Source of the DNA: Streptomyces sp. SCSIO 30461
Lineage (GTDB): Bacteria > Actinomycetota > Actinomycetes > Streptomycetales > Streptomycetaceae
Reading direction: 5' to 3'
Length of the DNA stretch: 64,000 nt
NCBI RefSeq assembly: GCF_037023745.1
Contig: NZ_CP146101.1
Location: forward strand, 4,890,001-4,954,000
Part shown: positions 3,126 through 30,996 of the stretch, in pieces
Numbering within the stretch: position 1 is the first letter of the stretch
Layout: each line of letters starts with the position of its first letter
The notes under the pieces: generated by a model
Seen by the model: only the letters and a program-made list of their open reading frames with translations
Database searches by the model: none
What the model was told of the DNA's origin: nothing
Translations under genes and position numbers: made by a program

Positions 3126-3521
3126 GTGATTACAGCCCGGTCGCGCTCGCGTGCGCCGCAATCCCGCCGTTCGGCGGGTCTGCGGCGTCTACTCGGCCTG
3201 GCCGCACTCCTGTTCGGCCTCCTGGCCGGGCACGGAGTGAACGTGGACGAGGCCGCGGTTGCCGCGTCGCCCGCCATGACCAGCCTTTCCCACAGCATTG
3301 AGATCGAGGGAAGCTCCGGCGACCACGGTCCGGTACACCCGGCACATGAATGCTCGCCAAGGCCGCCAGAGGGAACACCGGCACCCAATACGCCGTGTTC
3401 CGCGCGACAGGCCGATGCGCCCTGCTCTGCCGGGCCCTGTCCCCGAACCAATGCCGACATGGCCGCGGCGACCACTGCGCCGACGGCCGCGCCCAGAGCC
3501 TCGACAGTCCTTCAGGTGTAG
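3126..3521 (+). CDS. DUF6153-like small exported protein (copy 1)
   Basis: The 131-residue protein has a basic N-terminus, one hydrophobic helix (LLGLAALLFGLLAGHGV) and a soluble part with His and Cys residues (paired HxxH and Cys-Pro spots), ending in a hydrophobic tail TVLQV. Two similar proteins in this window (12829-13245 and the minus-strand gene 8712-9116) share the helix, the LFGL/LLGL...HG/HA signature and a hydrophobic C-terminal tail ending in LRI. I recognise the group as the streptomycete DUF6153 family, whose function is not established. The metal-gene setting and the His/Cys residues suggest metal binding outside the membrane. The GTG start is supported by the -10 box spaced for leaderless transcription. 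Confidence 0.65.
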   Translation: MITARSRSRAPQSRRSAGLRRLLGLAALLFGLLAGHGVNVDEAAVAASPAMTSLSHSIEIEGSSGDHGPVHPAHECSPRPPEGTPAPNTPCSARQADAPCSAGPCPRTNADMAAATTAPTAAPRASTVLQV

Positions 3522-3670
3522 AACGCCCCGCGTCTCGCTCCCTGCGGCCACGCGCACTCGCGCCCGGGAGTAGACAAAGGACGCGCATCACCCCCACACC
3601 CCTGATTTGCCGCGGATACCGCTCCGTCCTGCCTTCATGGGACCCAGAGGTACTGCCGCCCGGAGGAACT

Positions 3671-4081
3671 GTGCCACGCCGCCCCCGCAACCCCTTACTC
3701 GCCGCTGTCGTCGGCGCACTCCTGTTGTCGGCAGCCCTCTGCTTCACGCCCCTCGGCGACGCCGTACACCACCAGGTCGGCAGAGCCGCCGTCACGGCCG
3801 TCACAGCCGGTCTCGAACTCGACGTCGACCTCGGCCACAACGACCACCGAGGCCCACAGCATCAGCACCACGACCACCAGGCCGGCTGCTCTTCACCGGG
3901 CCTCGCGCCTCAGCTCCTCTTCACGGCACGGCACGCGCCTGACACCAGCGCACTCGCCACCTCCTTCGGCGACTACCCGCACGCCCTCGGACCTCAGCCA
4001 CAGCCGACGGCCGACGGTGCGGCACCCATAGCCAGTTCCGGTCGGTCGACGCAGATCCGCGTCTGCCGGTGGCGCATCTAG
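3671..4081 (+). CDS. LpqS-like His-rich exported protein
   Basis: The 136-residue protein starts at a GTG with GGAGG seven bases upstream. It has one N-terminal hydrophobic helix (LLAAVVGALLLSAALCF), then a His-rich segment (DVDLGHNDHRGPQHQHHDHQ) and a short C-terminal tail with Cys (RVCRWRI). The layout (signal helix, LD..GHxxH segment, Cys-bearing C-terminus) and the position directly before cysK2 and an MFS gene match mycobacterial LpqS (Rv0847), a copper-induced RicR-regulon protein. Sequence identity is too low for me to be sure from reading alone. A periplasmic or surface copper-binding role is inferred. Confidence 0.6.
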   Translation: MPRRPRNPLLAAVVGALLLSAALCFTPLGDAVHHQVGRAAVTAVTAGLELDVDLGHNDHRGPQHQHHDHQAGCSSPGLAPQLLFTARHAPDTSALATSFGDYPHALGPQPQPTADGAAPIASSGRSTQIRVCRWRI

Positions 4082-4162
4082 ACCGTTCGACTCCCGGCCG
4101 CGCACGACGCGGACGGCCCTCGAACGAGTACCCGATACGCACACCGAAATGAGAGCGGAATC

Positions 4163-5314
4163 ATGCATTCCTCGACCACCGACGTCACACCCCCCACCCG
4201 CTCCGCCCTGTCCGGGCTGGTAGGCAACACTCCTCTCCTCCGCGTCTCGGAGCCGCTCGCCCCGGCGGGCCGCGGTTTCTGGGCGAAGCTGGAGGGCTTC
4301 AACCCCGGCGGCATCAAGGACCGCCCGGGTCTCCACATGGTCGAGCGGGCCCGCGCCCGGGGCGACCTGCGCCCCGGCGCACGGATCATCGAGTCCACCA
4401 GCGGCACGCTCGGACTCGGCCTCGCCCTCGCCGGCATGGTCTACGGACACCCCGTCACCCTGGTCACCGACCCGGGCCTGGAGATGTCCATGACCCGGCT
4501 GCTCACCGCGTACGGAGCCCAGGTCAACGTGGTCTCCGAGCCGCACCCCACCGGCGGCTGGCAGCAGGCCCGCCGCGACCGCGTCGCCCAGCTCCTCGAA
4601 CAGCACCCCGGGTCCTGGTGCCCGGACCAGTACAACAACCCCGACAACACCACCGCGTACACCCCGCTCGCCCTCGAACTCGCCGCCGAACTGGGACACA
4701 TCGACGTCCTGGTGTGCAGCGTGGGCACCGGCGGGCACTCGGCCGGCGTCTCCCGCGTCCTGCGCCAGCTCTACCCGGACCTGACCCTGGTCGGGGTCGA
4801 CACCATCGGCTCCACGATCTTCGGCCAGCCGGCCCGGCCGCGGCTGATGCGCGGCCTCGGGTCCAGCATCTACCCGCGCAACGTCGCGTACGACCGGTTC
4901 GACGAGGTGCACTGGGTGGCGCCGAGCGAGGCGGTGCGGACCTGCCGGCAGCTCGCCACCTCGCACTACGCCACGGGCGGTTGGAGCGTCGGCGCCGTCG
5001 CTCTCGTCTCCGGCTGGCTCGCCCGTTCGCTCCCGAAGGAGACGAGGATCGCGGCGGTCTTCCCCGACGGGCCGCAGCGCTACCTCGGCACGGTGTACGA
5101 CGACGACTACTGCGCCGCCCACGGACTCCTCGACAACCCGCCCGCGCCCGAGCCGGAGGTCATCGGCCGCCTGGACGAGAAGGAGGTCACTCGCTGGACC
5201 CGGTGCGCCACCGTCGTCGACCCGCTCACACTCGCCGATGAGGGCTCGGCCGGAGCCGAGGACGGCCACGCCGACGACGCCGGCCTCGCGGACGCCGCGG
5301 AGGAGCGGGTCTGA
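4163..5314 (+). CDS. CysK2-like PLP-dependent cysteine synthase family enzyme
   Basis: The 383-residue enzyme has the fold-type II PLP signature: [10 protein letters not shown] at about residues 19-28, the Schiff-base lysine K52 in [26 protein letters not shown] for the substrate loop, and the glycine-rich phosphate-binding loop [10 protein letters not shown]. The C-terminus is longer than in CysK. In M. tuberculosis the homologous gene next to lpqS (cysK2, Rv0848) encodes an S-sulfocysteine synthase using O-phosphoserine and thiosulfate. The same reaction is a reasonable inference here but is not proven. The MFS gene starts inside its stop codon (TGATG), so the two are co-translated. A low-molecular-weight thiol product could buffer copper or be exported by the transporter. 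Confidence 0.8.
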
Positions 5315-6609
5315 TGAAGGGCACCTTCTCCCAGTTCCGCTCGTACGAACTCAGCGTGCGGCTGTTGATGGTGAACCAGTTCACCATCAACCTCGGCTTC
5401 TACATGCTGATGCCCTACCTCGCCGCCCACCTCGCCGGGCCCCTGGGCCTCGCCGGCTGGCTGGTCGGCCTCATCCTCGGCGTACGCAACTTCAGCCAGC
5501 AGGGCATGTTCCTGGTCGGCGGCACCCTCGCCGACCGGCTCGGCTACAAGCCGATGATCATCGCCGGTCTCGTCCTGCGCACGGCCGGCTTCGCGACCCT
5601 GGGCCTGGTGGACTCCGTGCCCGCGCTGATCGCCGCCTCCGCGGCGACGGGCCTGGCCGGCGCGCTGTTCAACCCGGCCACCCGCGCCTACCTCGCCGCC
5701 GACGCCGGTGAGCGCAGGGTGGAGGCGTTCGCTCTCTTCAACGTCTTCTACCAGGCGGGCATCCTGCTCGGGCCGCTCGTGGGCATGGTGCTGACCGGGG
5801 TCGACTTCCGCGTCACGTGCCTCGTCGCCGCCGGCACCTTCGCCGTGCTGAGCGTGGTGCAGATCCGCGCCCTCCCTGCCCGCCGGGCCAAGGTGACGAA
5901 GGAGAAGGAGGGGGCGAGTGTGCTCGCCGAGTGGCGCGGCATTCTCGCCAACCGCCCGTTCCTGCTCTTCTCCGTGGCCATGATCGGCTCGTACGTCATG
6001 TCCTTCCAGGTCTACCTGGCCCTTCCCCTGGAGGTGCGACGGATCGGCGGCGAAGGCACCTTCGGCACGGCGGCCGTCGCCGTCCTGTTCGCGGTGTCCG
6101 GGCTGAGCACCATCCTCTTCCAGACCAAGGTGACCGCCTGGTGCAAGGCCCGCATGGAGCCGGGGCGCGCCCTCACCTGGGGTCTGCTCACCATGGGCGT
6201 GGCGTTCGTGCCCCTGCTCGTCGCCACGGCGGTGCCCGTGCCGGGCGAAGGCATCGGCCTGTGGCTCCTCGCCTCCGTGCCGCCGACGCTCGCGGCGCTG
6301 CTCCTGGCGATCGGCACGATGATCGCGTACCCCTTCGAGATGGACACCATCGTCCGTCTCTCCGGAGACCGCCTCGTCGCCACGCACTACGGCCTTTACA
6401 ACACCATCTGCGGGGTCGGCATCACCCTCGGCAACCTGCTGACCGGAGCCGCGCTCGACGCCGCCCGGAAGGCCGGCCTTTCCGCACTGCCCTGGCTGGC
6501 GCTGACCGTGCTGGGCCTGGCGTGCACCGCCGCCCTGTACGGCCTGCACCGCACCGGCCGCCTCGCCGAGCCACCGACCAAGACCCGGCCGGAACCCGTG
6601 GCCGTCTGA
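5314..6609 (+). CDS. MFS transporter (partner of the CysK2-like enzyme)
   Basis: The 431-residue protein has about 12 hydrophobic spans and the MFS loop signature after span 2 (GGTLADRLGYKPMII). Its ATG overlaps the stop codon of the CysK2-like gene. The pair corresponds in order to Rv0848-Rv0849 of M. tuberculosis. The substrate is unknown; export of the CysK2 product or a related small molecule is one possibility. A strong hairpin terminator follows 15 bases after the stop codon, closing the lpqS-like/cysK2/MFS unit. Confidence 0.85.
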   Translation: MKGTFSQFRSYELSVRLLMVNQFTINLGFYMLMPYLAAHLAGPLGLAGWLVGLILGVRNFSQQGMFLVGGTLADRLGYKPMIIAGLVLRTAGFATLGLVDSVPALIAASAATGLAGALFNPATRAYLAADAGERRVEAFALFNVFYQAGILLGPLVGMVLTGVDFRVTCLVAAGTFAVLSVVQIRALPARRAKVTKEKEGASVLAEWRGILANRPFLLFSVAMIGSYVMSFQVYLALPLEVRRIGGEGTFGTAAVAVLFAVSGLSTILFQTKVTAWCKARMEPGRALTWGLLTMGVAFVPLLVATAVPVPGEGIGLWLLASVPPTLAALLLAIGTMIAYPFEMDTIVRLSGDRLVATHYGLYNTICGVGITLGNLLTGAALDAARKAGLSALPWLALTVLGLACTAALYGLHRTGRLAEPPTKTRPEPVAV

Positions 6610-7979: not shown

Positions 7980-8618
7980 TCAGCTCTTGCCGAGCATCTT
8001 GTTCATCTGCTCGATCTCGGCCGTCTGGGCCTTGATCACGTCATCGGCCATCTTGAGGGCGGGGCCGTACTTGCCCTCCGCCTTCAGCTTCTTGGCCATC
8101 TCGATGGCACCCTCGTGGTGCTTGATCATCATCTCGGCGAACATCTTGTCGAACTCGGCACCCTTGGCCTGCATGAGCTCGTCCATGTCCGCTTTGCTCA
8201 TCGAGCCGGGCATGCCGTTCGACATGTCGTGGCCCATGCCCGTCATGTCGGCCGGGACCTCCTCGCCCCACGAGGTGAGCCAGCCGGACATGGTCTTGAT
8301 CTCGGGGTCCTGGGCGCCCTTGATCTTCGCGGCCAGGTCCTTCGCCTCCGCGGACGAGGCCCTGGTGTCGGCCAGCTCGGCCATCTCCACGGCCTGGCGG
8401 TGATGCTGGATCATCTCCTTCGAGAAGGAGACATCGGCCGCGTTGTGGTCACCGGCCGTCGCGGGCGCGCTGGTGGCGGGAGCCGAGGACCCCGTTCCCA
8501 TGGATCCCATGTCGTGTCCGCCGGCGCTGCCGCCACACGCGGCGAGCACCAGGGCGGCGACGCCGGTGGCGGCGGCGACGAGGACGGTACGGCGGATCAG
8601 CTTGCGGTGCGTGTTCAT
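7980..8618 (-). CDS. DUF305 lipoprotein
   Basis: The 212-residue protein has a lipoprotein signal with lipobox LAAC (Cys28) and a four-helix DUF305 domain bearing the paired motifs MIQHHRQAVEMA and MIKHHEGAIEMA. There are many Met and His residues (MTGMGHDMSNGMPGSMSK). DUF305 proteins are ferritin-like helical proteins often found beside copper resistance genes. The ATG is chosen because AGGAG lies 7 bases upstream and the signal peptide starts there. It lies 93 bases downstream of the DUF6153-like gene on the same strand, so the two probably share a transcript. Lgt and Lnt encoded in this region would be its maturation enzymes. Confidence 0.9.
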   Translation of the reverse strand: MNTHRKLIRRTVLVAAATGVAALVLAACGGSAGGHDMGSMGTGSSAPATSAPATAGDHNAADVSFSKEMIQHHRQAVEMAELADTRASSAEAKDLAAKIKGAQDPEIKTMSGWLTSWGEEVPADMTGMGHDMSNGMPGSMSKADMDELMQAKGAEFDKMFAEMMIKHHEGAIEMAKKLKAEGKYGPALKMADDVIKAQTAEIEQMNKMLGKS

Positions 8619-10944: not shown

Positions 10945-11343
10945 ATGCGGGATCAGCGGAGAGGACACGGGCCCATGCGACGGCTGGGGGAGCTTGAGGC
11001 GGAGATCATGGACCGCTTCTGGAGATGGGGCCGCCCCGCGACCGTGCGTGAGGTCGTCGACGACATCAACCTGCACCGCGACGTCGCCTACACCACCGTG
11101 ACCACTGTCACGACCATCCTCTTCCACAAGGGCCACCTCACACGGGCCAGGAACGGCCGGATCTGGTTGTACAAGGCCGCGGACACCCGCGAGGCGTACT
11201 CGGCCGCGCTCATGGAGGACGGCCTGGAGGTCAGCGAGGACCGGCCGGCGGCCCTGGTCCAGTTCGTGGAGAACCTCGACGACGACGAGATCGCGGCTCT
11301 CCGCAACGCCCTCCGGACCGTCGGGCGACGGGCGAAGCAGTGA
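10945..11343 (+). CDS. BlaI/MecI/CopY-family repressor
   Basis: The 132-residue protein is a penicillinase-repressor-type winged helix. RRLGELEAEIMDRFWRWGR is helix 1 and VAYTTVTTVTTILFHKGHL is the recognition helix region, followed by a C-terminal dimerisation helix. The family includes BlaI, MecI and the copper repressor CopY, which lacks its C-terminal Cys hook here. The next gene, an M56-type membrane protease, overlaps it by four bases, the arrangement of BlaI/BlaR1 pairs. The position in a metal region makes a copper or envelope signal more likely than a beta-lactam; no beta-lactamase is nearby. ATG 10945 fits a near-leaderless promoter; ATG 10975 is an alternative with a weak upstream GAGAGGA. 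Confidence 0.85.
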   Translation: MRDQRRGHGPMRRLGELEAEIMDRFWRWGRPATVREVVDDINLHRDVAYTTVTTVTTILFHKGHLTRARNGRIWLYKAADTREAYSAALMEDGLEVSEDRPAALVQFVENLDDDEIAALRNALRTVGRRAKQ

Positions 11344-12251
11344 ACGCGGCCCCAACCCTCCTGGGATACGCGGCTGTCGTGGGCGTCGCCACCCCACGCC
11401 TGATGGTGCGCAGTGCCTGGCCACACCGGGCACCGGCCCTCGCGGCAGTCGTATGGCTCGCCCTCATGGTGTCGTTCACGCTCGCGACCGCGCTCGCCGC
11501 CTCCCAGCTCGCAACCCGTACCGAGCATCTGCACGCCGGACTCGTGGGGCTGCTGCACGCCTGCGGCCTCGCTGCGGGCACCCCGGTGGTGCCCAACCCG
11601 ACCACCGCCGACCAGCTCGCCCTGGCGATGCCCCTCGCCGTTGTCACCGCCTTCGCCGGTGCCTTCCTCTTCCACCTCACGCGCGCGGGACTCATGCGCG
11701 CCCGGCACCGCGACCGGCTCGACATGGTGGGCGTGCGCTCCGACCGCCTGCGCGCCACCGTCCTACCGCACGGCACCCCCGCGGCGTACTGCCTTCCGGG
11801 CCTCCGCTCCCGCATCGTCGTGAGCGACGCCGCCGTACGACTGCTCACGGAAGAGCAGCTCGACGCCGTCCTGGAGCATGAGCGGGCGCACATCGCCGGC
11901 CGCCATCATCTGCTGATCGCGGCCGCGCAGGCGTTCGCCACGGTCTTCCCCTGGGTGCCGCTCGCGCGCCGCGCGCGGGAGGAGCTGGCAGTACTCCTCG
12001 AGATGATCGCGGACGACCGCGCCCTGCGAAGCCACTCGCACGAGGTCCTGGCCACCGCGATGTACGAGATGGCCGCCGGCCGGGCACCGAAGGGCGCATT
12101 CGGCGCGGGCGGCTCGACGGCCCTCCTCCGCATGAAGCGCATCCTGGGCCCGCGCCGGGCCCCTCACCCGGCCCTCTGGGGCTCGGTGGCCTCCGTCGCC
12201 CTAGCCGTCCCGCTGCTGCCACTGCTGGTCGCCTGCCCACCTGGCTTGTGA
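11340..12251 (+). CDS. M56/BlaR1-like membrane zinc metalloprotease
   Basis: The 303-residue protein has about four transmembrane segments and a zinc-protease motif H180-E-R-A-H184 in VLEHERAHIAGRHH, with a downstream glutamate in LLEMIADDRAL. It has no penicillin-binding sensor domain like that of BlaR1, so it must sense or be triggered another way. Its GTG overlaps the repressor stop codon (GTGA). In the known BlaR1 and MecR1 systems the protease is activated by a signal and leads to loss of the repressor. The same logic is inferred here. Confidence 0.82.
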   Translation: MNAAPTLLGYAAVVGVATPRLMVRSAWPHRAPALAAVVWLALMVSFTLATALAASQLATRTEHLHAGLVGLLHACGLAAGTPVVPNPTTADQLALAMPLAVVTAFAGAFLFHLTRAGLMRARHRDRLDMVGVRSDRLRATVLPHGTPAAYCLPGLRSRIVVSDAAVRLLTEEQLDAVLEHERAHIAGRHHLLIAAAQAFATVFPWVPLARRAREELAVLLEMIADDRALRSHSHEVLATAMYEMAAGRAPKGAFGAGGSTALLRMKRILGPRRAPHPALWGSVASVALAVPLLPLLVACPPGL

Positions 12252-12816: not shown

Positions 12817-12822
12817 TATGAT
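12817..12822 (+). promoter_or_regulatory. -10 box for leaderless DUF6153-like gene copy 3
   Basis: TATGAT is followed by exactly six bases and then the GTG start at 12829. This is the same geometry as TAAGAT before copy 1. Confidence 0.5.
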
Positions 12823-12828
12823 CACGCC

Positions 12829-13245
12829 GTGGTCACGGAACCTTTGGCGGCGAGGAAGCCCCGCACGCGGTCTCTGGTTCCGCCGTGGTCGCGTCTGCTG
12901 TGGCTCGGCGCCCTTCTTTTCGGGCTCCTGTACGCGCACGGCCTCCACGCCGACAGCAGTGCCGGGCACACGACACCCGGCGGTGTCGCCACAGCCCTCG
13001 TCGGCCACGTCCACGAGCGGCTTCAGACGTCCGTCAACGACCACGACACCGACGGATCGCCGACGCACGCCATACCAGACTGCGCGACCGGACAGCCCTG
13101 GGCAGGGTTCGACATCCTTCCGCCCGCCCTGTCCCCGCTTGACGCGGAGCTCGCTCTCGACGGCGCGGTCGGCACCACGAGCCCGTCGGGGACGGTTCCT
13201 CCCACGGCGGCACCCTGCCCGGCATCGGTCGTTCTGCGCATCTAG
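12829..13245 (+). CDS. DUF6153-like small exported protein (copy 3)
   Basis: The 138-residue protein has a basic head, one hydrophobic helix (LLWLGALLFGLLYAHGLHAD, very close to copy 1), a His-containing soluble part with two single Cys residues, and a C-terminal VVLRI. No ribosome-binding site precedes the GTG, but the -10 box is placed for leaderless expression. It is followed by the frameshifted His-tailed membrane protein gene. Confidence 0.62.
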   Translation: MVTEPLAARKPRTRSLVPPWSRLLWLGALLFGLLYAHGLHADSSAGHTTPGGVATALVGHVHERLQTSVNDHDTDGSPTHAIPDCATGQPWAGFDILPPALSPLDAELALDGAVGTTSPSGTVPPTAAPCPASVVLRI

Positions 13246-13309
13246 CGAGCGATCGAGGCGACGGGCCGCCCCTTGGGGCCAAGCCCTCTCATCCGCCTCA
13301 TCACCAGGT

Positions 13310-14060: not shown

Positions 14061-14079
14061 TCTAAGTCACTTAGATAAT
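14061..14079 (+). promoter_or_regulatory. operator/promoter of the L,D-transpeptidase gene
   Basis: There is a 15-base palindrome TCTAAGT-C-ACTTAGA at 14061-14075, overlapped by a -10-like GATAAT at 14074-14079. The core CTAA-N5-TTAG is repeated with the same spacing before lgt (18906-18918). The repressor encoded at 10945 is the obvious candidate to bind it. Confidence 0.6.
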
Positions 14080-18934: not shown

Positions 18935-18940
18935 GAAATC

Positions 18941-21105: not shown

Positions 21106-21513
21106 ATGACCACGGCCAAGGACATCCTCGCCACCTACCCGGCCGATCTCGGAAACATCGACCAGGACAAGCTCGCACGCTGCGTCGAGGCATGCACGAT
21201 GTGCGCCCAGGTGTGTACGGCGTGCGCGGACGCGTGTCTGTCCGAAGGAATGGTCGGCGACCTGATCAAGTGCATCCGCACCGACATGGACTGCGCCGAC
21301 ATCTGCAACGTCACCGCTTCGGTGCTGTCCCGTCACACGGGCTACGACGCCAACGTCACCGCCGCGCTGCTCAAGGCGTGCGCGGTGGCCTGCAAGGCGT
21401 GCGGCGACGAATGCGCGTCACACGCGGACATGCACGACCACTGCCGCCTGTGCGCGGAGGCGTGCCGGGCCTGCGAAGCAGCATGCGACGAACTCCTCGC
21501 GGCCCTGGGCTGA
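21106..21513 (+). CDS. four-helix-bundle copper-storage protein (Csp/DUF326 type)
   Basis: The 135-residue protein contains 18 cysteines arranged as CxxxC and CxxC pairs along predicted helices (CVEACTMCAQVCTACADAC near the start, HCRLCAEACRACEAAC near the end), plus His residues. This is the pattern of Csp-type four-helix bundles that store many Cu(I) ions inside the bundle. There is no signal peptide, so it should act in the cytoplasm, like Csp3. GAGG lies 8 bases before the ATG. It is one of the strongest pointers to copper as the metal of the region. Confidence 0.92.
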   Translation: MTTAKDILATYPADLGNIDQDKLARCVEACTMCAQVCTACADACLSEGMVGDLIKCIRTDMDCADICNVTASVLSRHTGYDANVTAALLKACAVACKACGDECASHADMHDHCRLCAEACRACEAACDELLAALG

Positions 21514-21982: not shown

Positions 21983-22645
21983 TCAGGCCACACCGTGGGC
22001 GGTCGTCGCGGCGACCGCACGCCGGGATCGCCACATCGAGACGACGGTGAGCGCCGTCAGCGCGACCATGACGCCGGCCGAGATCAGGAACGCCGGCGAG
22101 GTCGGCGACGAGGCGGAGGCTCCGGCGACCACGTAGGCAGCCGTACCGGGCAAAACACCCAGCGCCGTGGCGGCGGCAAAGGAGCGCAGCCGTACGCCGG
22201 AGAAGGCAGCGGCGAAGTTGACCGCCGGGAAGGGGACGCCGGGCACCGCCCTCAGCAGGAACACGCTACGAAAGCCCTGCTGGGTGAGCCGCCGGTCCAG
22301 GGCCGCCAGCACCTTCCCCTTCAGGAACGGCTGCAGCGCCTCGCGCCCGAGGCCCCGTCCCAGCCTGAAGGCCAGGACCGCGCCGAGCGTCGTCCCTGCC
22401 ACCGCCAGCAGCAGCCCCTCCGGGGCGCCGAAGAGGACCCCGGCCGCCACGTTGAGCACGGGCTTCGGGAAGAACGCCAGGGTGGCGATCGCGAACACGA
22501 GCACGAAGGCGAGCCCCGCCCAGACGGGCGGAACCTCGGAGGTGAGCTCCTGCGAGAGGACGCGCTGGGGGCTCCACAGGAGGAGGGAACCGGCCGCCGC
22601 TGCCAGGATCGCGACGAGCAGACCCAGCCGGACGGACGGTGTCAT
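21983..22645 (-). CDS. TVP38/TMEM64 (VTT domain) membrane protein
   Basis: The 220-residue protein has about five spans and the VTT/DedA-like core: FPKPVLNVAAGVLFGAPEG, GTTLGAVLAFRLGRGLGREA and the LRAVPGVPFPAVNFAAAFSG loop. The family is thought to act in lipid handling or small-molecule transport; the precise role is unknown. ATG 22645 is taken as the start; a GTG at 22711 would add 22 Arg-rich residues. It is close to a truncated MFS gene upstream. Confidence 0.82.
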   Translation of the reverse strand: MTPSVRLGLLVAILAAAAGSLLLWSPQRVLSQELTSEVPPVWAGLAFVLVFAIATLAFFPKPVLNVAAGVLFGAPEGLLLAVAGTTLGAVLAFRLGRGLGREALQPFLKGKVLAALDRRLTQQGFRSVFLLRAVPGVPFPAVNFAAAFSGVRLRSFAAATALGVLPGTAAYVVAGASASSPTSPAFLISAGVMVALTALTVVSMWRSRRAVAATTAHGVA

Positions 22646-22732
22646 ACGCACACGCCGAGTGTACGTGGCCGGCGTCAGGCCGGGCCGGTGGCGACGGACG
22701 CGCGTAACCACGCCGGGCCGGAACCGGGGAGC

Positions 22733-23190
22733 TCAGTGTGAGCGGCTCGAGGCTCGTTGTCGCCGCTGCCGGGGTTCGTCGTGAATGGTCACCGCCGCGA
22801 GTACCGCGGCGGCCAGCGCGATCGCGGCGTTGACCTGGAAGCCGGCTGCGATGCCGTCCGCGAACGCCTTGGGGTCGACGGAATCCGCCAGGTCACCTGG
22901 CCATTGCGCGGCCACGACCGCGCCCATGACGGCGATCCCGAGCGAGAGGCCGAGCATCCGGGAGGCGTTCAGGGTGCCGCTGGCGGTGTCGGCGTGTGCC
23001 GGTGGCACGTTGCCCATCGTCGCCGTCGTGACGGGGGTGGTGGTCCGTGCGATGCCCATGCCGGTGATGAGGAACCCCGGGAGCAGCTGACTCACTCCCC
23101 ACCCCGGGTCGATGCCGGCCAGGACGAGGAGCCCCGCCGCCGTCAGAACCATGCCGACGGTGATCAGGGGCCGGGCGCCGGTCGCGCAGC
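22733..23190 (-). pseudogene. C-terminal fragment of a DHA2-type MFS transporter
   Basis: This reads as the last quarter of an EmrB/QacA-type drug exporter (RPLITVGMVLTAAGLLVLAG, ASGTLNASRMLGLSLGIAVMG). The frame has no family sequence before about 23190, where it meets a GalT-like fragment on the other strand. An ATG at 23152 exists, but about three quarters of the transporter is missing. Confidence 0.75.
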
Positions 23191-23538
23191 GCCCCTTACG
23201 AGACCTGGATCGTGCCCCGCCGCCACCAGGCTTCCTTCGCCGACGCGCCCGACGAGATCATCGAGGAGACCGCAGCCGTGCTGCGCCGTCCGCTCGTCGC
23301 CCTGCGCGGCCTGCTCGGAGACGTCCCCTACAACTACGCGCTCATCAGCGCACCCAACGGCGAAGAGGCCACCGCCTACTTCGCGTGGCACCTTCAGCTG
23401 GTGCCTCGGCTGTCTGCCATCGCCGGATTCGAACTCGGCAGCGGGATGGCCGTCAATCCCGTCCCTCCCGAGGACGCCGCCGCTCAACTGCGTCGGGCCC
23501 TGGCCGAACAGCCCTTGCGTCAGGGTCTGCGCGGATAG
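23190..23538 (+). pseudogene. C-terminal fragment of a GalT-like uridylyltransferase
   Basis: From about 23190 this reads APYETWIVPRRHQASF, then VPYNYALISAPNG, FAWHLQLVPRLSAIAGFELG and MAVNPVPPEDAAAQLR. These are the metal- and substrate-site motifs of the second half of galactose-1-phosphate uridylyltransferases. The first half is absent. The junction with the MFS fragment marks an old rearrangement. Confidence 0.75.
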
Positions 23539-23680
23539 GAACACCGGGACGGCCACGCTTCCCGGCCACGGGGTCGACCCGTGGGACAGTGGAAGGCGGC
23601 TCACGCGGAACGGCTCCTCGCCAGGGCGAGGGCCGACGCGGAGTCCGACGAGACGCCCACGGACACATAAGGACGTCGAG

Positions 23681-24400
23681 ATGAGCGAGGGCCTGGTCGC
23701 GGCGCCGTCCCAGCGTGCCCTGGTGGTCGACGACGAGGTGGAGTTGGCCCGGCTGGTCGGTGACTACCTGTCCCGCGAGGGGTTCGCGGTCGACGTCGCG
23801 CACGACGGGGAGCACGCCCTCCGGCTGGCCCGAGCCGCAGCGCCGGACGTGGTGGTGCTCGACGTGATGATGCCCGGCATCGACGGCATGGAGGTGTGCC
23901 GACAGCTGCGCACCTTCACCGACGCCTACGTCATCATGCTGACCGCGCGGGCCGAGGAGGTCGACAAGATCGTCGGCCTGTCGGTGGGCGCCGACGACTA
24001 CCTGACCAAGCCGTTCAGCCCCAGGGAGCTCGTCGCCCGGGTCAAGGCGATGCTGCGCCGGCCCCGGGCCTCGCAGGCGGGGGCGAAGCACGCGCCACCG
24101 GTGCGCCGGTTCGGCGAGCTGACGATCGACCCCGAGGCCCGGGAGGTCACCGTCGCGGACCGCCGGGTGGAGCTCACCCGGCTGGAGTTCGACCTGCTGG
24201 AAGCGCTGTCGGCCCGCCCACGCATGGCCTTCAGCCGCCGGCAGCTGATCGAGCAGGTCTGGGCGAAGGGCTGGGGCGGCGACGAACACGTCGTCGACGT
24301 CCACATCGCGCACCTGCGGCGCAAGCTCAAAGACGCCCCGTCCGCGCCCCGCTATGTGATGACCGTGCGCGGCGTCGGCTACCGGATGGGGCCCGGCTGA
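23681..24400 (+). CDS. OmpR-family response regulator
   Basis: The 239-residue protein has a receiver domain with phospho-acceptor D61 (VVVLDVMMPG) and K110 (DDYLTKPFSPREL), and an OmpR-type winged helix with the recognition region HVVDVHIAHLRRKL. AAGGA lies 7 bases before the ATG. Its stop overlaps the ATG of the kinase gene (TGATG). The kinase and the multicopper oxidase follow directly, so a copper- or envelope-stress-responsive system (CutRS/CopRS-like) is likely by context. Confidence 0.93.
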   Translation: MSEGLVAAPSQRALVVDDEVELARLVGDYLSREGFAVDVAHDGEHALRLARAAAPDVVVLDVMMPGIDGMEVCRQLRTFTDAYVIMLTARAEEVDKIVGLSVGADDYLTKPFSPRELVARVKAMLRRPRASQAGAKHAPPVRRFGELTIDPEAREVTVADRRVELTRLEFDLLEALSARPRMAFSRRQLIEQVWAKGWGGDEHVVDVHIAHLRRKLKDAPSAPRYVMTVRGVGYRMGPG

Positions 24401-25503
24401 TGCCCCGACGGCTGGGCCTGACCGGTCAGCTGGTGCTCGCCCAGCTGCTCGCGGTCCTGGCCGGAGCCGCCGCCCTCGCCGCCGTCGCCCTCGCCATCGG
24501 CCCGCCCCTGTTCCGCAGCCACGTCCGCCGTGCGGTCGGCGCCGTCTCCCCACAGCTGTCCGATCACCTGCAGGACGCCTTCCTCGCCGCAGGCGGCATC
24601 TCCGTCGGCATCGGCATGGCCGCCTTCCTGCTCGCCGCCGTCACCGCCGGCCTGCTCATCACCCGCAGGATCTCCCGTCCCGTCAGGGCCCTCGCCGACG
24701 CGGCGGCCCGCCTGGCCGCCGGCGACCACAGCACCCGCCTGGGTCCGACAGGGCTCGGGGCGGACTTCGACACCCTCACCGACGCCTTCAACACCATGGC
24801 CACCGCGTTGGAAAGCACCGAACAGACCCGCCGACGACTGCTCGGTGACGTGGCGCATGAACTGCGCACCCCGCTGGCGACCATCGAGGCGTATCTGGAG
24901 GGGCTCGCCGACGGGGTGCGCACGCTCGACGCACAGACCCTGAGCGTGCTGGGCACGCAGACCGCCCGGCTGCACCGGCTGGTCGAGGACATCTCCCTGG
25001 TCTCCCGCGCCGAGGAACAGCAGCTCGCGCTGGCGCGGGCGATCGTCCCTGCCGGGCGGCTGGTCGAGGCCGCCGCGTCTGCTACCCGTCCCGCGTACCA
25101 GGCCAAGGGCGTGCACCTGCGCCTCGCCGTCAGTCCCCACGCCCCTGCTGTGGACGTGGACGAGGACCGGGTCGTCCAGGTGCTCGTCAACCTCCTCACC
25201 AACGCGCTGCGCCACACTCCCACCGGCGGCACGGTCACCATCACCGCCGAACCCGCCGAGACGGGCGCGCTGCTGCTCAGTGTGGCCGACACCGGAGAGG
25301 GCATCGCCGCGGAACACCTGCCGCACATCTTCGAGCGGTTCTACCGAGCCGACCCCGCCCGCGACCGTGCGCACGGCGGCTCCGGCATCGGCCTGGCCAT
25401 CGCCCGCGCTCTCGTCCAGGCCCACGGAGGCACGATCACCGCGAGCAGCCAGGGACCCGGCACCGGCGCCGTCTTCCGGATCAGCCTGCCGGCCGCTCCG
25501 TGA
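24400..25503 (+). CDS. sensor histidine kinase
   Basis: The 367-residue protein has two transmembrane helices (about 13-34 and 67-87) enclosing a very short extracytoplasmic loop of about 30 residues, a HAMP domain (RRISRPVRALADAAARLAAG), the phospho-accepting His153 in GDVAHELRTPLATIEAYLEG, and ATP-binding boxes (NLLTNALRHTP, DTGEGIAAEHLPHIFERFYR, GGSGIGLAIARALVQAHGG). The short loop resembles kinases that sense a membrane or metal signal rather than a large ligand. It is co-translated with the response regulator. Confidence 0.93.
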   Translation: MPRRLGLTGQLVLAQLLAVLAGAAALAAVALAIGPPLFRSHVRRAVGAVSPQLSDHLQDAFLAAGGISVGIGMAAFLLAAVTAGLLITRRISRPVRALADAAARLAAGDHSTRLGPTGLGADFDTLTDAFNTMATALESTEQTRRRLLGDVAHELRTPLATIEAYLEGLADGVRTLDAQTLSVLGTQTARLHRLVEDISLVSRAEEQQLALARAIVPAGRLVEAAASATRPAYQAKGVHLRLAVSPHAPAVDVDEDRVVQVLVNLLTNALRHTPTGGTVTITAEPAETGALLLSVADTGEGIAAEHLPHIFERFYRADPARDRAHGGSGIGLAIARALVQAHGGTITASSQGPGTGAVFRISLPAAP

Positions 25504-25615: not shown

Positions 25616-27229
25616 ATGAGCAACAGTTCCATGAGCAACAGATGGTTCCGCCCGCGCTGGCTGATCGCCCTGGTCGCCCTCATCACCGCTGCCGGTGTCG
25701 GCATCGGCCTGTGGACGACCGGGTCGTCGTCCGCCACGGCATCCACCCCGGTCAAACCGGACGACCCCGCCGTGAACGCGGCCGAGGCCGCCCGCCAGAA
25801 CCCGGACGCGCGGGTGCGGGACGTGACCCTGAACGCCGCTCCCACGACACTGCAGCTCGGCGGGAAGAAGGTCAGCACCTGGGCCTTCAACGGCAAGGTC
25901 CCCGGACCGGAGATCCGTCTGCGCGCCGGCGACGTCCTGCAGGCCAGGGTCAACAATGGGCTGCCCGACCCGCTGACCGTGCACTGGCACGGTGTCGCGC
26001 TGCGCAACGACATGGACGGCGTGCCCGACGTGACACAGAAGGCGATCAAGCCCGGCGGCACGTTCACTTACCGGTTCACCGTCACGGACCCGGGCACCTT
26101 CTTCTACCACTCGCACGTCGGCACACAGCTGGACCGCGGACTGTACGGGCCGCTGATCGTGGACGACCCCAGCGACACCGCCGCCCCGCGCCGCGACATC
26201 ACCGTGATGCTCGACGACTGGCTCGACGGCACCGGCCGCACCCCCGACCAGGTCCTCGACCGGCTCCGCTCCGGCAGCGCCGGCACCATGCCCGGCATGG
26301 CGGGCGACGGCATGGAGGGCCACGACATGGGTTCCATGCCCGGCATGAACGGCTCGGAAGACGGTTCGACATCGGACAGCTCGATGATGAGCGGCGACAC
26401 GCCGACCGGGGACAATCCGCTGGGCGGCGACACCAGTGACGTCACGTACCCGTACTACCTGATCAACGGACGCCCGCCAGCCTCCCCGGCCGCCTTCACC
26501 GTGAAGCCGGGTGAGCGCATCCGTCTGCGGATCATCAACGCCGCCGCGGACACCCCGTTCCGTGTCGCGCTCGGCGGCAGCCCCCTGACGGTCACCGCCA
26601 CGGACGGCTTCCCGGTCCGGCCCGCCGCAGCGGACGCCGTCCTGCTGGGCATGGGCGAACGGTACGACGCGGAGGTCACCGTGCCCGGGTCCGGAGTCTT
26701 CCCGCTGGTCGCCGCCGCCGAGGGCGCCGAAGACGAGTCGGCGCAGGCACTCGCGGTGCTCCGCGCCGCGCCCGGGCCGAACCCCATGCCCGACGTCAAG
26801 CCGAAGGAACTGAGCGGCCGGCTCCTGGCCCCCGGCGACCTGCACGCCACCCCGGCCGTCACACTGCCCGCACGCGAGCCCGACCGTACCTACACCGTCG
26901 GCCTCACCGGTGACATGAACACCTACAAGTGGGGCGTGACCGCCCCCGCGGAGCAGGGCACCACGCTGCCGGTCCGGCAGAGCGAGCGGATCAAGCTGGT
27001 GCTGGAGAACCGGAGCATGATGTGGCACCCGATGCACCTGCACGGCCACACCTTCCAGGTGGAAGGCGACGGCGCCCCGGGACCGCGCAAGGACACGGTC
27101 ATCGTGCCGCCCATGGGCAGGGTCACCGTCGAGCTCGACGCGAACAACCCCGGCCAGTGGCCGCTGCACTGCCACAACGCCTACCACGCGGAGGCAGGGA
27201 TGCAGACCATGCTCTCCTACGTGAAGTAG
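25616..27229 (+). CDS. multicopper oxidase (MmcO/CueO-like)
   Basis: The 537-residue protein has an N-terminal membrane anchor (LIALVALITAAGVGIGLW) and all four copper-site motifs: HWHGVALRNDMDGVP, FYHSHVGTQL, HPMHLHGHTFQV and HCHNAYHAEAGMQ. An insert rich in Met and His (GMAGDGMEGHDMGSMPGMNG) lies at about residues 223-260, a feature of Cu(I)-oxidising enzymes such as CueO. It should oxidise Cu(I) outside the membrane. No twin-arginine signal is seen. AGGAGG precedes the ATG by 9 bases. It follows the two-component genes by 112 bases. Confidence 0.93.
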   Translation: MSNSSMSNRWFRPRWLIALVALITAAGVGIGLWTTGSSSATASTPVKPDDPAVNAAEAARQNPDARVRDVTLNAAPTTLQLGGKKVSTWAFNGKVPGPEIRLRAGDVLQARVNNGLPDPLTVHWHGVALRNDMDGVPDVTQKAIKPGGTFTYRFTVTDPGTFFYHSHVGTQLDRGLYGPLIVDDPSDTAAPRRDITVMLDDWLDGTGRTPDQVLDRLRSGSAGTMPGMAGDGMEGHDMGSMPGMNGSEDGSTSDSSMMSGDTPTGDNPLGGDTSDVTYPYYLINGRPPASPAAFTVKPGERIRLRIINAAADTPFRVALGGSPLTVTATDGFPVRPAAADAVLLGMGERYDAEVTVPGSGVFPLVAAAEGAEDESAQALAVLRAAPGPNPMPDVKPKELSGRLLAPGDLHATPAVTLPAREPDRTYTVGLTGDMNTYKWGVTAPAEQGTTLPVRQSERIKLVLENRSMMWHPMHLHGHTFQVEGDGAPGPRKDTVIVPPMGRVTVELDANNPGQWPLHCHNAYHAEAGMQTMLSYVK

Positions 27230-27406: not shown

Positions 27407-28183
27407 ATGACCAGCATCACCCGCCGCATCACCACCCTGTTCCGGGTCAAGGCGAACAAGGCCCTCGACAAGGCCGAGGACCCGCGCGAGGTACTGGACT
27501 ACTCCTACGTCCTGCAGCAGGAGATGCTGCAGAAGGTACGGCGTGGCGTGGCCGACGTGGCCACCAGCCGCAAGCACGTCGAATTGCAGATCGGGCAACT
27601 GGAGCAGTCCAGCGGCAAGCTGGAGGGGCAGGCGCAGCAGGCGCTGGCCGCCGGACGCGAGGACCTCGCCCGCGAGGCCCTGGCCCGGCGCACCGCCGTG
27701 GCCTCCCAGCTCGCCGACCTCCAGGGCCAGCACGAGACCTTGCAGGCCGAGGAGGAGAAGCTGACCCTCGCCGCGCAGCGCCTGCAGGCGAAGGTGGACG
27801 CCTTCCGTACCAGCAAGGAGACCATCAAGGCCCGCTACACCGCGGCCGAGGCCCAGACCCGTGTCACCGAGGCCGTCACCGGCATCGGTGAGGAACTGGG
27901 CGATGTCGGCCTGGCCATGCAGCGTGCCCAGGACAAGACCGAGGAGCTGCAGGCCCGCGCGGGCGCGCTGGACGAGCTGATCGCCTCCGGCGCCCTGGAG
28001 GACGCCACCCTGCCGGCCGGACGCGACGACATCCAGGCCGAACTCGAACGCGTCACCGCCGGCCAGGACGTGGAGACCGAGCTGGCCCGGATGAAGGCCC
28101 AGCTCCCGGCCTCCGCCACCCCACCCGCCGTGGAAGGCAAGGGCACCGCGGCGAGCACGCCGGACCAGGAGGCGACATCATGA
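27407..28183 (+). CDS. pspA: PspA/IM30 family phage-shock protein
   Basis: The 258-residue protein is almost entirely coiled coil (RKHVELQIGQLEQSSGKLEG and on) with the PspA N-terminal amphipathic helix ITRRITTLFRVKANKALDKA. PspA proteins bind and protect damaged membranes (ESCRT-III superfamily). GAGGAGG lies 8 bases before the ATG. The next gene overlaps its stop codon, and the set pspA-pspAA-htpX-pspAB is a known actinobacterial cluster. Its place directly after the multicopper oxidase suggests envelope protection under metal stress. Confidence 0.92.
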   Translation: MTSITRRITTLFRVKANKALDKAEDPREVLDYSYVLQQEMLQKVRRGVADVATSRKHVELQIGQLEQSSGKLEGQAQQALAAGREDLAREALARRTAVASQLADLQGQHETLQAEEEKLTLAAQRLQAKVDAFRTSKETIKARYTAAEAQTRVTEAVTGIGEELGDVGLAMQRAQDKTEELQARAGALDELIASGALEDATLPAGRDDIQAELERVTAGQDVETELARMKAQLPASATPPAVEGKGTAASTPDQEATS

Positions 28184-28458
28184 TCATGCGCATCCTGGGC
28201 GAGGGCCAGTATAAGATCGACGACAAGCACCTCGACCATCTCAACGAGCTGGACTCCGACCTGCAGTCGGCCGCCGACGCGGGCGACGAGACCGCCTTCG
28301 CCACCGCGCTGTCGGCCCTGCTGGACGCCGTACGCGCCCTCGGCACCCGACTGCCGGACGAGACGATCACGCCGTCCGACCTGATGCTTCCCGATGCGGA
28401 CACCAGCCTCACGCGGGTGCGGGCGCTGCTCTCGGACGAGGGCCTGATCCCGGGGTGA
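28180..28458 (+). CDS. pspAA: PspA-associated protein PspAA
   Basis: The 92-residue protein begins MIMRILGEGQYKIDDKHLDH, typical of PspAA, a small partner of PspA in actinobacteria. Its ATG overlaps the pspA stop codon by four bases, and the htpX remnant starts inside its last codon. It probably binds PspA or links it to the protease partner; no enzyme motif is visible. Confidence 0.85.
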   Translation: MIMRILGEGQYKIDDKHLDHLNELDSDLQSAADAGDETAFATALSALLDAVRALGTRLPDETITPSDLMLPDADTSLTRVRALLSDEGLIPG

Positions 28459-28767
28459 CGACGATGCGCAGCCGCTTCGAACCGGACCGGCAGCTGACCG
28501 CCCGGATGCTGGTCACCATGTTCCTGCTCGGACTGCTGTACGTGGCGTTCGTCGCCGTGCGCATCGGCCCTGACGAAGGTCACGGGCGACATCGCCCGCA
28601 TCCCCACCGAGGACCTGCGCACCGCCCAGGCGTTCAACGCCTTCTTCTTCACCCCGGCACTCGGTCCCCGCACCACGCTGGCCAACCTGTTCTCCACCCA
28701 CCCCACCCTGGAACGCCGCCTGGAAGCGCTCGCGGAGATCTCCGCGCGGCTGGGCGAAGGCGGCTGA
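28455..28767 (+). pseudogene. htpX: htpX remnant with large out-of-frame internal deletion
   Basis: The first about 35 codons match an HtpX N-terminus (RSRFEPDRQLTARMLVTMFL, LGLLYVAFVAV). From about 28567 a different frame carries the HtpX C-terminus (ALTKVTGDIARIPTEDLRTA, FNAFFFTPALGPRT, STHPTLERRLEALAEISARL) to TGA 28767. Everything between, including the membrane spans and the HExxH zinc site, is gone, and the two pieces are out of frame. The gene cannot make the protease. Confidence 0.85.
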
Positions 28768-28782
28768 GGAGGTCGATGGTCC

Positions 28783-29361
28783 GTGGGTTTCCTCGACGCG
28801 CTGTTCGGTCGGAGCAAACCGGTCAAGCCCGACCTCGACCAGCTCTTCGGCCTGCCGTCGGCGGCGATCACCCTCCAGGCAGCGATCGGCTTCCGCCCGA
28901 CCGGGACCGGTTCCGTGTGCTTCGCGAGCATCGAGGGCGGCGCCTTCGCCCAAGTCCAGGACGAGGTACGCGCACTGCTCGACGCCGATTCCCAACGGGG
29001 CGGCACGCCAGTGGAGTTCAGCCGCGACGACTACGGATACTCGTGGCTGCTCACCCGCCGGAGCCCGGACGATCTGCCCGGCCTCGTGGGTGACCTGCAC
29101 GCAGTGAACACCACCCTCCAGGACAGCGGCTTCGGACCCCAACTGCTCTGCTCGCTCGTCGCCTTCCACGACGCCGAGCTCCGGCCGCTCGCCCTGATCT
29201 ACCTCTACAAACGCGGTTCGTTCTACCCGTTCGCTCCCCTGCCCGGCGAGAAGCGCGACAACCCGCTCGAACTCCAGGTCAAGGCCGTTCTCAAGGACGA
29301 CCTCCGCATCGAGCAGGACCTGACCCGCTGGTTCCCCCTCTGGGGCGCGCCCGGCCTGTGA
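28783..29361 (+). CDS. pspAB: PspA-associated protein PspAB
   Basis: The 192-residue protein begins MGFLDALFGRSKPVKPDLDQ, the typical start of PspAB, and is full length. GGAGG lies before the GTG, only 15 bases after the htpX remnant. PspAB is a cytosolic partner of the PspA/PspAA/HtpX set with no known catalytic activity. Its survival next to a gutted htpX suggests that the Psp proteins still function without the protease. Confidence 0.85.
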   Translation: MGFLDALFGRSKPVKPDLDQLFGLPSAAITLQAAIGFRPTGTGSVCFASIEGGAFAQVQDEVRALLDADSQRGGTPVEFSRDDYGYSWLLTRRSPDDLPGLVGDLHAVNTTLQDSGFGPQLLCSLVAFHDAELRPLALIYLYKRGSFYPFAPLPGEKRDNPLELQVKAVLKDDLRIEQDLTRWFPLWGAPGL

Positions 29362-29420: not shown

Positions 29421-29893
29421 ATGGGCGCTGCCCTGCGTCTGTCACGTCCGGCCGAGTCGGCGGCCGGCGCGGAACCCGAAATGGACATCATGGCCGACGA
29501 GTCCGCCGGATACCCGGAGGATCTGACCCCGCTCGAACGCGTACGGCGATCGGCCCGGAGGTGGCAGAAGGCACAGCTGGCCGTACTCGGGGCACCGGCC
29601 CTCTTCGGCGTGCTCAAGTCCCGTACCGAGTCCCCCGCGCCGTCCGGCATGCAGCTGGCCTCTGGCGTCCTGTCACTCGTGGCTCTGGGCATCGCCTGCT
29701 GGGCTGCCTTCCTCGTCGGCCGTGTCGCGTGGCCGCTGCCGGGCGGCGGCGTTCCGACGCAGGCCCGTGGGGATGCCGGTGCCGAACTGGCCCCGGTCAG
29801 CCGGAGACTACGCAGGGGGCAGATCCTGACCTACGTCGCCATCGGAACGGCGCCCTTGCCACCACCTCACTGCGGTGGCCCTCGCCGGCCTGA
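29421..29893 (+). pseudogene. small two-span membrane protein, probably frameshifted near the 3' end
   Basis: ATG 29421 (or 29481) opens a frame with an Arg-rich cytoplasmic head, one hydrophobic span (ASGVLSLVALGIACWAAFLV) and a second span that begins GQILTYVAIGTA. It then reads as Pro/Arg-rich noise unless the frame shifts near 29852, after which it continues [13 protein letters not shown] and stops at 29893. The unshifted frame runs to 30128 through an antisense CopA fragment. The family is not recognised. Confidence 0.4.
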
Positions 29894-29980
29894 CCCTCCG
29901 CGCTGGTCGGCGAGGCGCGTCAGAGGCGCAGCGCACGGCGCAGGACGGGGGCGAGCTCGGCCAGTCGCCGGCGGCGAGTG

Positions 29981-30212
29981 GGTGGCCAGGCCGAGCGCGC
30001 ACGGGCAGGCGATGATCAGGACCGAGACGGCCGAGACCAGCGCCAGGGTGAGCGCGGGGGCGGGACCGATCGTGAACCACAGCGCGAAGGTGACGATCGC
30101 GATGGCGATGACGGCGGGCACGAAGTAGGCGGAGACGGCGTCGGCGAGCCGCTGGATGGGGGCCATGGACGCCTGGGCCTGCTGCCGAGGCGCACGATCT
30201 GGGCGGCGCCAT
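29981..30212 (-). pseudogene. fragment of a copper P-type ATPase (CopA-like)
   Basis: On the minus strand this reads DGAAQIVRL, then after a frame slip [20 protein letters not shown], two membrane spans and the ion-binding motif [12 protein letters not shown]. These are the hallmarks of P1B-1 copper-exporting ATPases around transmembrane helix 6. Both ends are missing. It shows that a copper pump gene once lay here. Confidence 0.78.
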
Positions 30213-30522
30213 CGAATCCGTCGGTGGAAAGTCAGGGGCCCCGCCACAGCCCACCGGCATCCCCGCGTAGCCAGGGCAGCCAGAGGAGTCCGCCCATTCA
30301 GCCCACTGCGCGCGAGTCCAGCGGGCCTCGCGGCGGCCAACGTCTACTGGCGCGCCTGACCGCCCTGTCACGGGCGTACGGACTCACCGCGCAGCCTTGA
30401 CCGGAGCCGGCGGGCCGACAGTATCCGCTCTCCCGGCGTGGTCTTTGAACGTCGAGGGGCCAGGTCCCGTACAACAGAACGAACGGGCCCGATCCCGGGC
30501 CGCCGACGAAGAGGAGGCCCGC

Positions 30523-30996
30523 ATGAGCGGAACACAGGGACCGGCGCACACCGTGGCACGCCGCACCGTCGTCACGGCGGCGGGCGGAGCGGGGATGTGT
30601 CTGGCCCTCGCGGCCTGCGGTGGATCGAACGAGTCAGGCGCCGCCGGGGAACCCGCCGCCGACCAGAGCGCCAAGGACCCCGCCGGCAGCACGGGCGGCG
30701 GTAGCGGTGGCGGTGGGAAGGCACTCGCCAAGACCACGGACATCCCCGAGGGCGGTGGCAAGGTGATCGGCGATGTGGTGGTGACCCAGCCGAAGGCCGG
30801 GGAGTTCAAGGCATTCTCAGCGAAGTGCACCCATCAGGGCTGCTCCGTGAAGGGTGTATCCGACAATATGATCAACTGCCCGTGCCACAACAGCCTGTTC
30901 GACGCATCCGACGGCACGGTACACAAGGGTCCGGCGACCACCCCGCTGCCGGCCACGCCGATCGTGGTGGACGGGGACACGATCAGGCTGGCGTGA
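30523..30996 (+). CDS. Rieske [2Fe-2S] lipoprotein with Tat-like signal
   Basis: The 157-residue protein has a signal with an RR pair (VARRTVVTAAGGAG) ending in a lipobox-like LAAC, a Gly/Ser linker and a Rieske domain. The cluster ligands are in CTHQGC and CPCHNSLFD. The RR pair suggests the folded cluster protein is exported by Tat and then lipidated. GAGGAGG precedes the ATG. It is probably an electron-transfer protein on the outer face of the membrane. It ends the metal region. Confidence 0.88.
   Translation: MSGTQGPAHTVARRTVVTAAGGAGMCLALAACGGSNESGAAGEPAADQSAKDPAGSTGGGSGGGGKALAKTTDIPEGGGKVIGDVVVTQPKAGEFKAFSAKCTHQGCSVKGVSDNMINCPCHNSLFDASDGTVHKGPATTPLPATPIVVDGDTIRLA

Follow-up and report, generated by a model that had tools for sequence, protein, structure and literature searches.

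Results and discussion

A shared operator before copper-type and envelope genes

In a stretch of 64,000 nucleotides (the window) from the complete chromosome of Streptomyces sp. SCSIO 30461 (8,047,498 bp), an AT-rich palindrome with the consensus TACTAAGtnaCTTAGTA is common to the upstream sequences of copper-type and envelope genes. It precedes the lpqS-cysK2-MFS genes, an L,D-transpeptidase gene, the lnt operon (as a weak copy), lgt and, outside the window, an NlpC/P60 hydrolase gene. The window also encodes a BlaI-family repressor and an adjoining M56-type membrane peptidase, and on sequence grounds this pair probably operates the shared operator. We consider it rather likely that the region holds a BlaI-M56 regulon of copper and envelope genes, in which sensed copper would cause derepression and copper-blocked envelope enzymes would be replaced. 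The original prediction had described positions 3126 to 30996 as one metal-response program that also rebuilds the envelope. Its joint program survives for the operator-bearing genes of the window and fails for the 28 kb as a whole: the genes for the DUF305 protein, cupredoxin, copper storage protein (Csp), multicopper oxidase and Rieske protein lack the operator, and the unit extends to the NlpC/P60 gene outside. The program is thus probably defined by the operator, not by the 28-kb stretch. Our confidence derives mainly from the scan of lgt classes, the operator sites near blaI and the genes behind the operator.

Copies in the window were scored with a matrix of 31 distinct sites, all from outside the window; chance-like sites of three loci (L203, L211, L212) among the 39 distinct sites found were left out. 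The copy CTTAGTTTCTTAG (2995-3007, 21.3 bits) lies 125 bp before lpqS-cysK2-MFS, and lpqS1 of S. roseicoloratus is preceded by an operator of identical score (21.3 bits). The L,D-transpeptidase gene is preceded by CTAAGTCACTTAG (14062-14074, 24.3 bits), a match to the strict pattern given below, and by a second, overlapping copy at 14070 (16.8 bits). The weak copy before the lnt operon (16765-16777) reaches 12.8 bits; in nine genomes, this one counted, orthologues of the first gene of this operon are preceded by operators of 12.4-29.0 bits. The lgt copy CTAATCTCCTTAG (18906-18918), within the 3' end of lnt, reaches 26.0 bits, or 26.7 bits with a matrix trained without lgt sites, and is conserved in all 8 other lgt promoters aligned. 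Just downstream a TATAcT-like box ends about 6 bases before the lgt start codon, a placement that would suit a repressor and a leaderless lgt message. In 60 random windows of an order-2 Markov model the mean maximum was 6.7 bits and the highest value 14.6 bits. Among the 37 window genes scored, only lpqS1, the L,D-transpeptidase gene, the first gene of the lnt operon and lgt had more than 10 bits upstream. All remaining upstream regions stayed at or below -2.0 bits, save pspA at a sub-threshold 8.4; for DUF305, cupredoxin, Csp, the multicopper oxidase, its two-component system and the Rieske protein the best score in 300 bp each was negative. An operator on every gene of the 28-kb region was rejected by these scores.

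A strict pattern, CTAAKNNNMTTAG, was drawn up after the window and sister sites were known. It matches three places in 8.05 Mb, before the NlpC/P60, L,D-transpeptidase and lgt genes, all within 22.5 kb; a reversed control pattern was equally frequent (3 in 8.05 Mb), so that the genome count of strict sites is what chance allows. The two window matches had been in view when the pattern was drawn up; the third was unforeseen and hence serves as a test. It precedes an NlpC/P60 gene that lies 3.6 kb to the left of the window (L148:16531-17571; NLPC_P60 domain, 88.2 bits), outside the range of the original prediction, and by our own arithmetic the chance of one random place falling within 20 kb of the other two strict sites is about 0.005.

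Occurrence of the operator across lgt classes

With the lgt-free matrix, whose training set was confirmed to contain no lgt site, the operator was found at about -36 in the window lgt and in 9 of 13 other copper-island lgt genes. The same matrix placed it before none of 23 other accessory and none of 101 housekeeping lgt genes, with L037, L044, L057 and L061 counted as housekeeping. At L012 the site lies at -72 from the called lgt start and at -36 from an upstream GTG. Copper-lgt loci (0.25 Mb), part of which had trained the matrix, held 40 sites of at least 14 bits; housekeeping-lgt loci (1.83 Mb) held 1, and the other accessory loci (0.45 Mb) held none. In ten genomes with a copper-island lgt, 42 sites of the operator pattern stood against 15 matches of the control pattern. 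Twenty-nine of the 42 shared a contig with both lgt and the top BlaI match, including 3 in the host genome, which is a single contig.

Link to blaI-M56

BlaI was surveyed in 199 Streptomyces genomes. Forty-three had a match at E 1e-35, 29 of them with at least 149.5 bits; 27 of the 29 formed the BlaI-bearing set, and two (G000, G096) were omitted as already used for discovery. The set contained 28 strict sites, spread over 17 genomes. Fifteen of these were at most 10 kb from a listed BlaI gene, 13 within 2.3 kb, with about 0.06 expected (one BlaI per genome); two of the 15 (G047, G184) adjoin a BlaI of 53-55 % identity. The comparison set consisted of 19 genomes without BlaI at E 1e-35 and 8 with a weaker BlaI (54-62 % identity); the identity ranges of the two sets overlap, the cut being made at 149.5 bits. 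It held 15 sites, and none of the nine sites in the 8 genomes with a listed, weaker BlaI was near it. Similar sites do occur beside weaker BlaI paralogues (L224, L225, L230, parts of G546), which suggests that related BlaI proteins read the same operator sequence. In 10 of 20 loci the neighbour of blaI-M56 is an NlpC/P60 gene preceded by a strong site; 15 of the 20 had been picked for a site near blaI. In two genomes (G143, G162) the order site-NlpC-blaI-M56 is co-directional and would permit autoregulation there. Three genomes new to the motif had 10, 3 and 0 sites of at least 14 bits per 60 kb. Outside Streptomyces no BlaI orthologue was found at E 1e-33 among 345 class-level genomes of 126 genera; the matches were 5 Streptomyces. 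The sites lie near blaI, are conserved and track orthologues of the window BlaI, from which we infer that BlaI binds the operator.

The repressor gene (10945-11343, + strand) encodes a clear BlaI-family protein (PF03965, 78.2 bits, cut-off 22.6). It is followed by the proposed sensor (11340-12251, + strand), which the original prediction had called M56. The gene is there and its product carries HExxH, a motif kept in 28 of 28 aligned proteins; the family name is less certain, as the score against Pfam M56 (25.1 bits) stays under the cut-off of 31 and that against Peptidase_M48 (35 bits) exceeds its cut-off of 20.3. In the 303 residues no penicillin-binding or other sensor domain beside the peptidase was found. 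The loop between the second and third membrane segments, EHLHAGLVGLLHACGL, contains H63 and C75, two residues that are the same in all 16 proteins of an alignment, and an HxH loop is present in 22 of 28 M56 proteins aligned. This His/Cys loop is no more than a candidate site for copper.

Genes behind the operator in sister islands

Targets were listed for 59 loci of 36 genomes or records, with sites of at least 12 bits up to 450 bp upstream. The operator precedes an NlpC/P60 gene in 20 of the genomes or records, lgt in 10, a gene of the lnt operon in 9, an L,D-transpeptidase gene in 8, a redoxin lipoprotein gene in 6, copZ in 4 (one weak), a cupredoxin-copper ATPase gene in 3, csoR-type genes in 2 and 2, lpqS in 2 and blaI in 1; since lgt, the motif or BlaI guided the choice of loci, these counts show breadth, not frequency. 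Family checks on the sister-island targets returned HMA, P-type ATPase, metal-sensitive repressor, redoxin, DsbD_TM and NLPC_P60. In one genome (G291) a site lies about 0.3 kb before copZ.

Proposed function and alternatives

BlaI would repress TACTAAGtnaCTTAGTA-bearing promoters and would itself be held in check by the adjoining M56 peptidase. In the host its targets would be lpqS-cysK2-MFS, the L,D-transpeptidase, the operon of the small membrane protein and lnt, lgt and the NlpC/P60 hydrolase; sister islands would add copZ, the cupredoxin-copper ATPase, csoR and a thioredoxin-like lipoprotein. M56 may sense an excess of copper on the outer side of the membrane, perhaps by the conserved His/Cys loop, and would then inactivate BlaI. 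The derepressed cell would then make copper-handling proteins together with fresh envelope enzymes that act on or with a cysteine thiol. Lnt, YkuD and NlpC/P60 have a catalytic cysteine. The thiol-linked steps that copper would block are those of the Lgt substrate, Lnt, YkuD and NlpC/P60. Published effects of copper suggest that the metal may be the inducer and that the purpose may be to replace thiol enzymes which it has poisoned. In E. coli copper mimics Lgt depletion, which fits a block of the thiol acylated by Lgt (PMC6538781, available part), and according to the accessible portion of a commentary LD-transpeptidases are inhibited by copper through their cysteine thiols (PMC6593411). With thiol-dependent envelope steps and copper genes in one regulon, replacement of poisoned targets would be the simplest reading. 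The most specific version, in which BlaI-M56 senses external copper via the His/Cys loop and drives a 'target replacement' regulon along with copper export and binding proteins, is put forward tentatively. Accounts of copper resistance usually centre on export, oxidation and sequestration; if the regulon is real, replacement envelope enzymes would join this list, the presence of lgt in copper islands would be explained, and BlaI-M56 pairs without a known signal would gain one.

Several observations weigh against this regulon, besides the chance-level number of strict matches in the chromosome and the selected sample of target loci. The lnt copy is weak, its 12.8 bits lying inside the null range for one window. 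Autoregulation of blaI in the host genome was rejected, no site being found before blaI. Ten of the 27 BlaI-bearing genomes are without a strict site, and the comparison set is low in power, with a listed BlaI in just 8 of 27 genomes. A fresh relative (G528), with a BlaI of 90 % identity, had a single 12-bit site in 60 kb. The operator is missing before lgt at L143-L146, four copper-linked loci of another clade, and 43 of the 127 operator sites have no assigned gene. The HxH motif is absent in 4 M56 proteins that are paired with a BlaI of 63-69 % identity (the remaining two exceptions are distant M56 paralogues), and the position of the loop outside the membrane was read from hydrophobic segments judged by eye.

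Beta-lactam resistance is the best-known setting of BlaI-M56 pairs, and the regulon might answer cell-wall damage, for instance by beta-lactams, as BlaR1-BlaI does; its true targets would then be the L,D-transpeptidase, NlpC/P60, Lgt and Lnt, and the copper genes would be passengers of the island. The NlpC/P60 gene is indeed the commonest one behind the operator (20 of 36 genomes or records), and blaI-M56-NlpC/P60 forms the recurrent core. We regard this explanation as unlikely, though a serious competitor: copZ, the cupredoxin-copper ATPase, csoR and lpqS-cysK2 have the operator upstream, and in the short M56 protein no sensor domain was found beside the peptidase.

Less probable still is that the local Lgt and Lnt just raise the lipidation capacity for copper lipoproteins of the island, with the L,D-transpeptidase and NlpC/P60 being incidental. 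The lipidation role was the idea of the original prediction, which counted at least four lipoproteins; a lipobox was confirmed in the DUF305, L,D-transpeptidase, cupredoxin and Rieske products, and in sister islands a redoxin lipoprotein stands behind the operator. However, the genes of the DUF305, cupredoxin and Rieske lipoproteins are without it, and it precedes lgt, lnt and the lipobox-free NlpC/P60 gene. The asserted need for the local enzymes could not be upheld either: the genome has a housekeeping Lgt at 5,895,751 (69 % identical to the window Lgt), three Lnt genes in all, two besides that of the window, and six genes with a Big_10 domain. The envelope enzymes of the window are therefore additional copies, and the lipoproteins need not depend on them. 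An ordinary copper island of transferred genes under separate controls and with decaying remnants, without a joint program, would agree with the CopA, MFS and DUF3105 remnants, the frameshifted membrane gene and the two-component system adjoining the multicopper oxidase, but is very improbable in view of a conserved operator that is common to several genes and rare outside such islands.

Comparison with known systems

The proposed BlaI-M56 regulon resembles BlaR1-BlaI and MecR1-MecI in placing a repressor of family PF03965 beside a membrane HExxH peptidase. It differs in that a penicillin-binding sensor domain was not found and that copper genes, lgt and lnt would be targeted. The operators of those systems are palindromic and of the TACA/TGTA type, unlike the window operator CTAAGtnaCTTAG. 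In enterococci, CopY and TcrY are BlaI-family repressors over copper export genes, and CopY senses copper itself via C-terminal cysteines. The translated window BlaI contains no cysteine, so this copper site is absent, and it has an M56 partner instead.

In the available parts of two papers, lpqS-cysK2-permease is a copper-responsive RicR locus of mycobacteria (PMC10470581, PMC7924339); in the window the PALP and MFS genes of this set are confirmed, the LpqS-like gene is assigned to it by context, and another operator is present. Boxes of the CsoR/RicR type as a common control were rejected, with 0 TACCC-GGGTA boxes in the window; the Streptomyces CsoR operator has a different, G-tract consensus (PMC3902906, accessible part). 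An extra lgt beside a multicopper oxidase and copper genes is also described for islands of Enterococcus faecalis and Pseudarthrobacter, where the available text names neither a shared operator nor lnt, an L,D-transpeptidase or NlpC/P60 (PMC4511184, PMC6256500). The NlpE-Cpx response of E. coli likewise connects copper with failure of the Lgt step and with repair of the envelope; it differs in using a two-component system and a lipoprotein sensor, and the excerpts at hand name no dedicated replacement Lgt or Lnt (PMC6538781, PMC6593411). There is no mention of lgt in the main text of a review on copper genes that Staphylococcus and Listeria acquired by transfer (PMC10233261), and the accessible main text of a paper on copper in S. 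coelicolor does not mention BlaI, a lipoprotein or a transpeptidase (PMC6414726). No sequence of the M. tuberculosis BlaI motif was found in the available parts of PMC12565901, PMC8265638 and PMC4301838. Among the matches listed, covering titles and the starts of abstracts with few subscription papers, there was no published description of a copper-linked BlaI-M56 regulon or of this operator in Streptomyces.

Accessory lgt copies

A scan of 80 loci around the closest Lgt relatives with 37 proteins of the window showed lgt alone at nearly all of them. Seven (L004, L005, L006, L008, L009, L012, L014) hold in addition, variously, blaI, the M56 gene, the gene of the GCPICNK protein, lnt, the small membrane protein gene, cysK2 and genes for the multicopper oxidase or L,D-transpeptidase. 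In relatives, too, this Lgt is thus surrounded by overlapping selections of these genes, and the clustering above chance that had been proposed is borne out. An Lgt match was present in 290 of 295 further Streptomyces genomes, with more than one copy in 30 (host included). Regions of up to 20 kb were taken for nearly all long Lgt copies of multi-copy genomes, leaving out both copies of G075, single-copy genomes and most fragments. Clusters of CsoR, CopA, CopZ, BlaI, M56, DUF305 and L,D-transpeptidase genes lie beside accessory lgt and at 0 of the 69 loci L015-L083. Copper neighbours were found at 6 of 29 accessory lgt loci (L114, L121, L143-L146), or at 8 with the inclusion of L138 and L141, where a CsoR-type gene stands alone. 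Accessory Lgt as a general copper gene was rejected, most loci having MarR-, MFS- or TetR-like neighbours by eye. A single origin of the copper-linked lgt was rejected as well: on the tree, where L012 and L121 raise long-branch warnings, no fewer than 3 label changes have to be placed on branches with good support.

Three further groups of accessory Lgt were seen. One clade (L007, L115-L120), 80-83 % identical to the window Lgt, lies beside genes judged by eye as TetR-like and small membrane genes; it lacks the operator, and no copper genes were noticed. L131-L142 have mostly MarR-like and MFS-like genes (by eye), with a CsoR-type gene at L138 and L141. The separate clade L143-L146 adjoins copA, csoR and a two-component system, and its lgt has no operator in front; one genome (G256) carries two Lgt of this type plus one of the window type. 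The third Lnt gene of the host (G000:C1:4875211-4875681) lies about 11 kb left of the NlpC/P60 operator.

Other genes of the region

Gene calling and Pfam/NCBIfam searches found the genes named in the original prediction where it had placed them, start codons being uncertain predictions of the gene caller, and added a Rieske lipoprotein, a VTT protein, a DUF1015 protein and an aminotransferase. The copper-type operon starts with a small secreted LpqS-like protein (3126-3521, + strand), which had no Pfam or NCBIfam match at E 0.01; the predicted gene exists, and its name comes from the operon context and the original prediction, without a family model behind it. It is followed on the + strand by a second, His-rich LpqS-like protein without a family match (3665-4081), a CysK2-like pyridoxal phosphate enzyme (4163-5314; PALP, PF00291, 180 bits) and an MFS permease (5314-6609; PF07690). 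The DUF305 protein with a lipobox is encoded on the - strand (7980-8618). The L,D-transpeptidase lipoprotein (14095-15297, + strand) combines Big_10 and YkuD and contains SHGC, the motif of the YkuD domain. A small membrane protein with a GCPICNK motif (16881-17336, + strand), for which MerT matched sub-threshold only, opens the lnt operon; Lnt itself follows (17333-18922, + strand; TIGR00546, 224 bits; PF20154 (LNT_N) and the nitrilase domain PF00795). The accessory Lgt (18941-19804, + strand; PF01790, 219 bits) has the Lgt motif GRxGN, and the small membrane protein behind it (19818-20048, + strand) follows lgt in several sister islands too. Further along are a cupredoxin with a lipobox (about 20294-20695), the DUF326 protein Csp with 18 cysteines (21106-21513), the multicopper oxidase (25616-27229), PspA/PspAA/PspAB (27407-29361), a CopA remnant (29867-30166, - strand) and the lipobox-bearing Rieske protein absent from the earlier list (30523-30996).

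The genes for DUF3105 (20858-21097), an MFS protein (22733-23152) and CopA (29867-30166) are truncated, which suggests an eroding island. A membrane protein gene at 12818-14004 shows frame changes here and is kept in copper islands (91 % identity in L004, open in L201). The VTT protein and an OmpR-type two-component system precede the multicopper oxidase (21983-25503) and point to a control that is probably separate. Between the NlpC/P60 gene and lpqS lie genes for a CbtA-like transporter, a FemAB-type peptidoglycan enzyme and MurJ (L148:17631-18344 and 18565-19743; window 19-1587). The transporter gene, left of the window, is split over two frames, and a 15-bit operator-like site is found at L148:18500.

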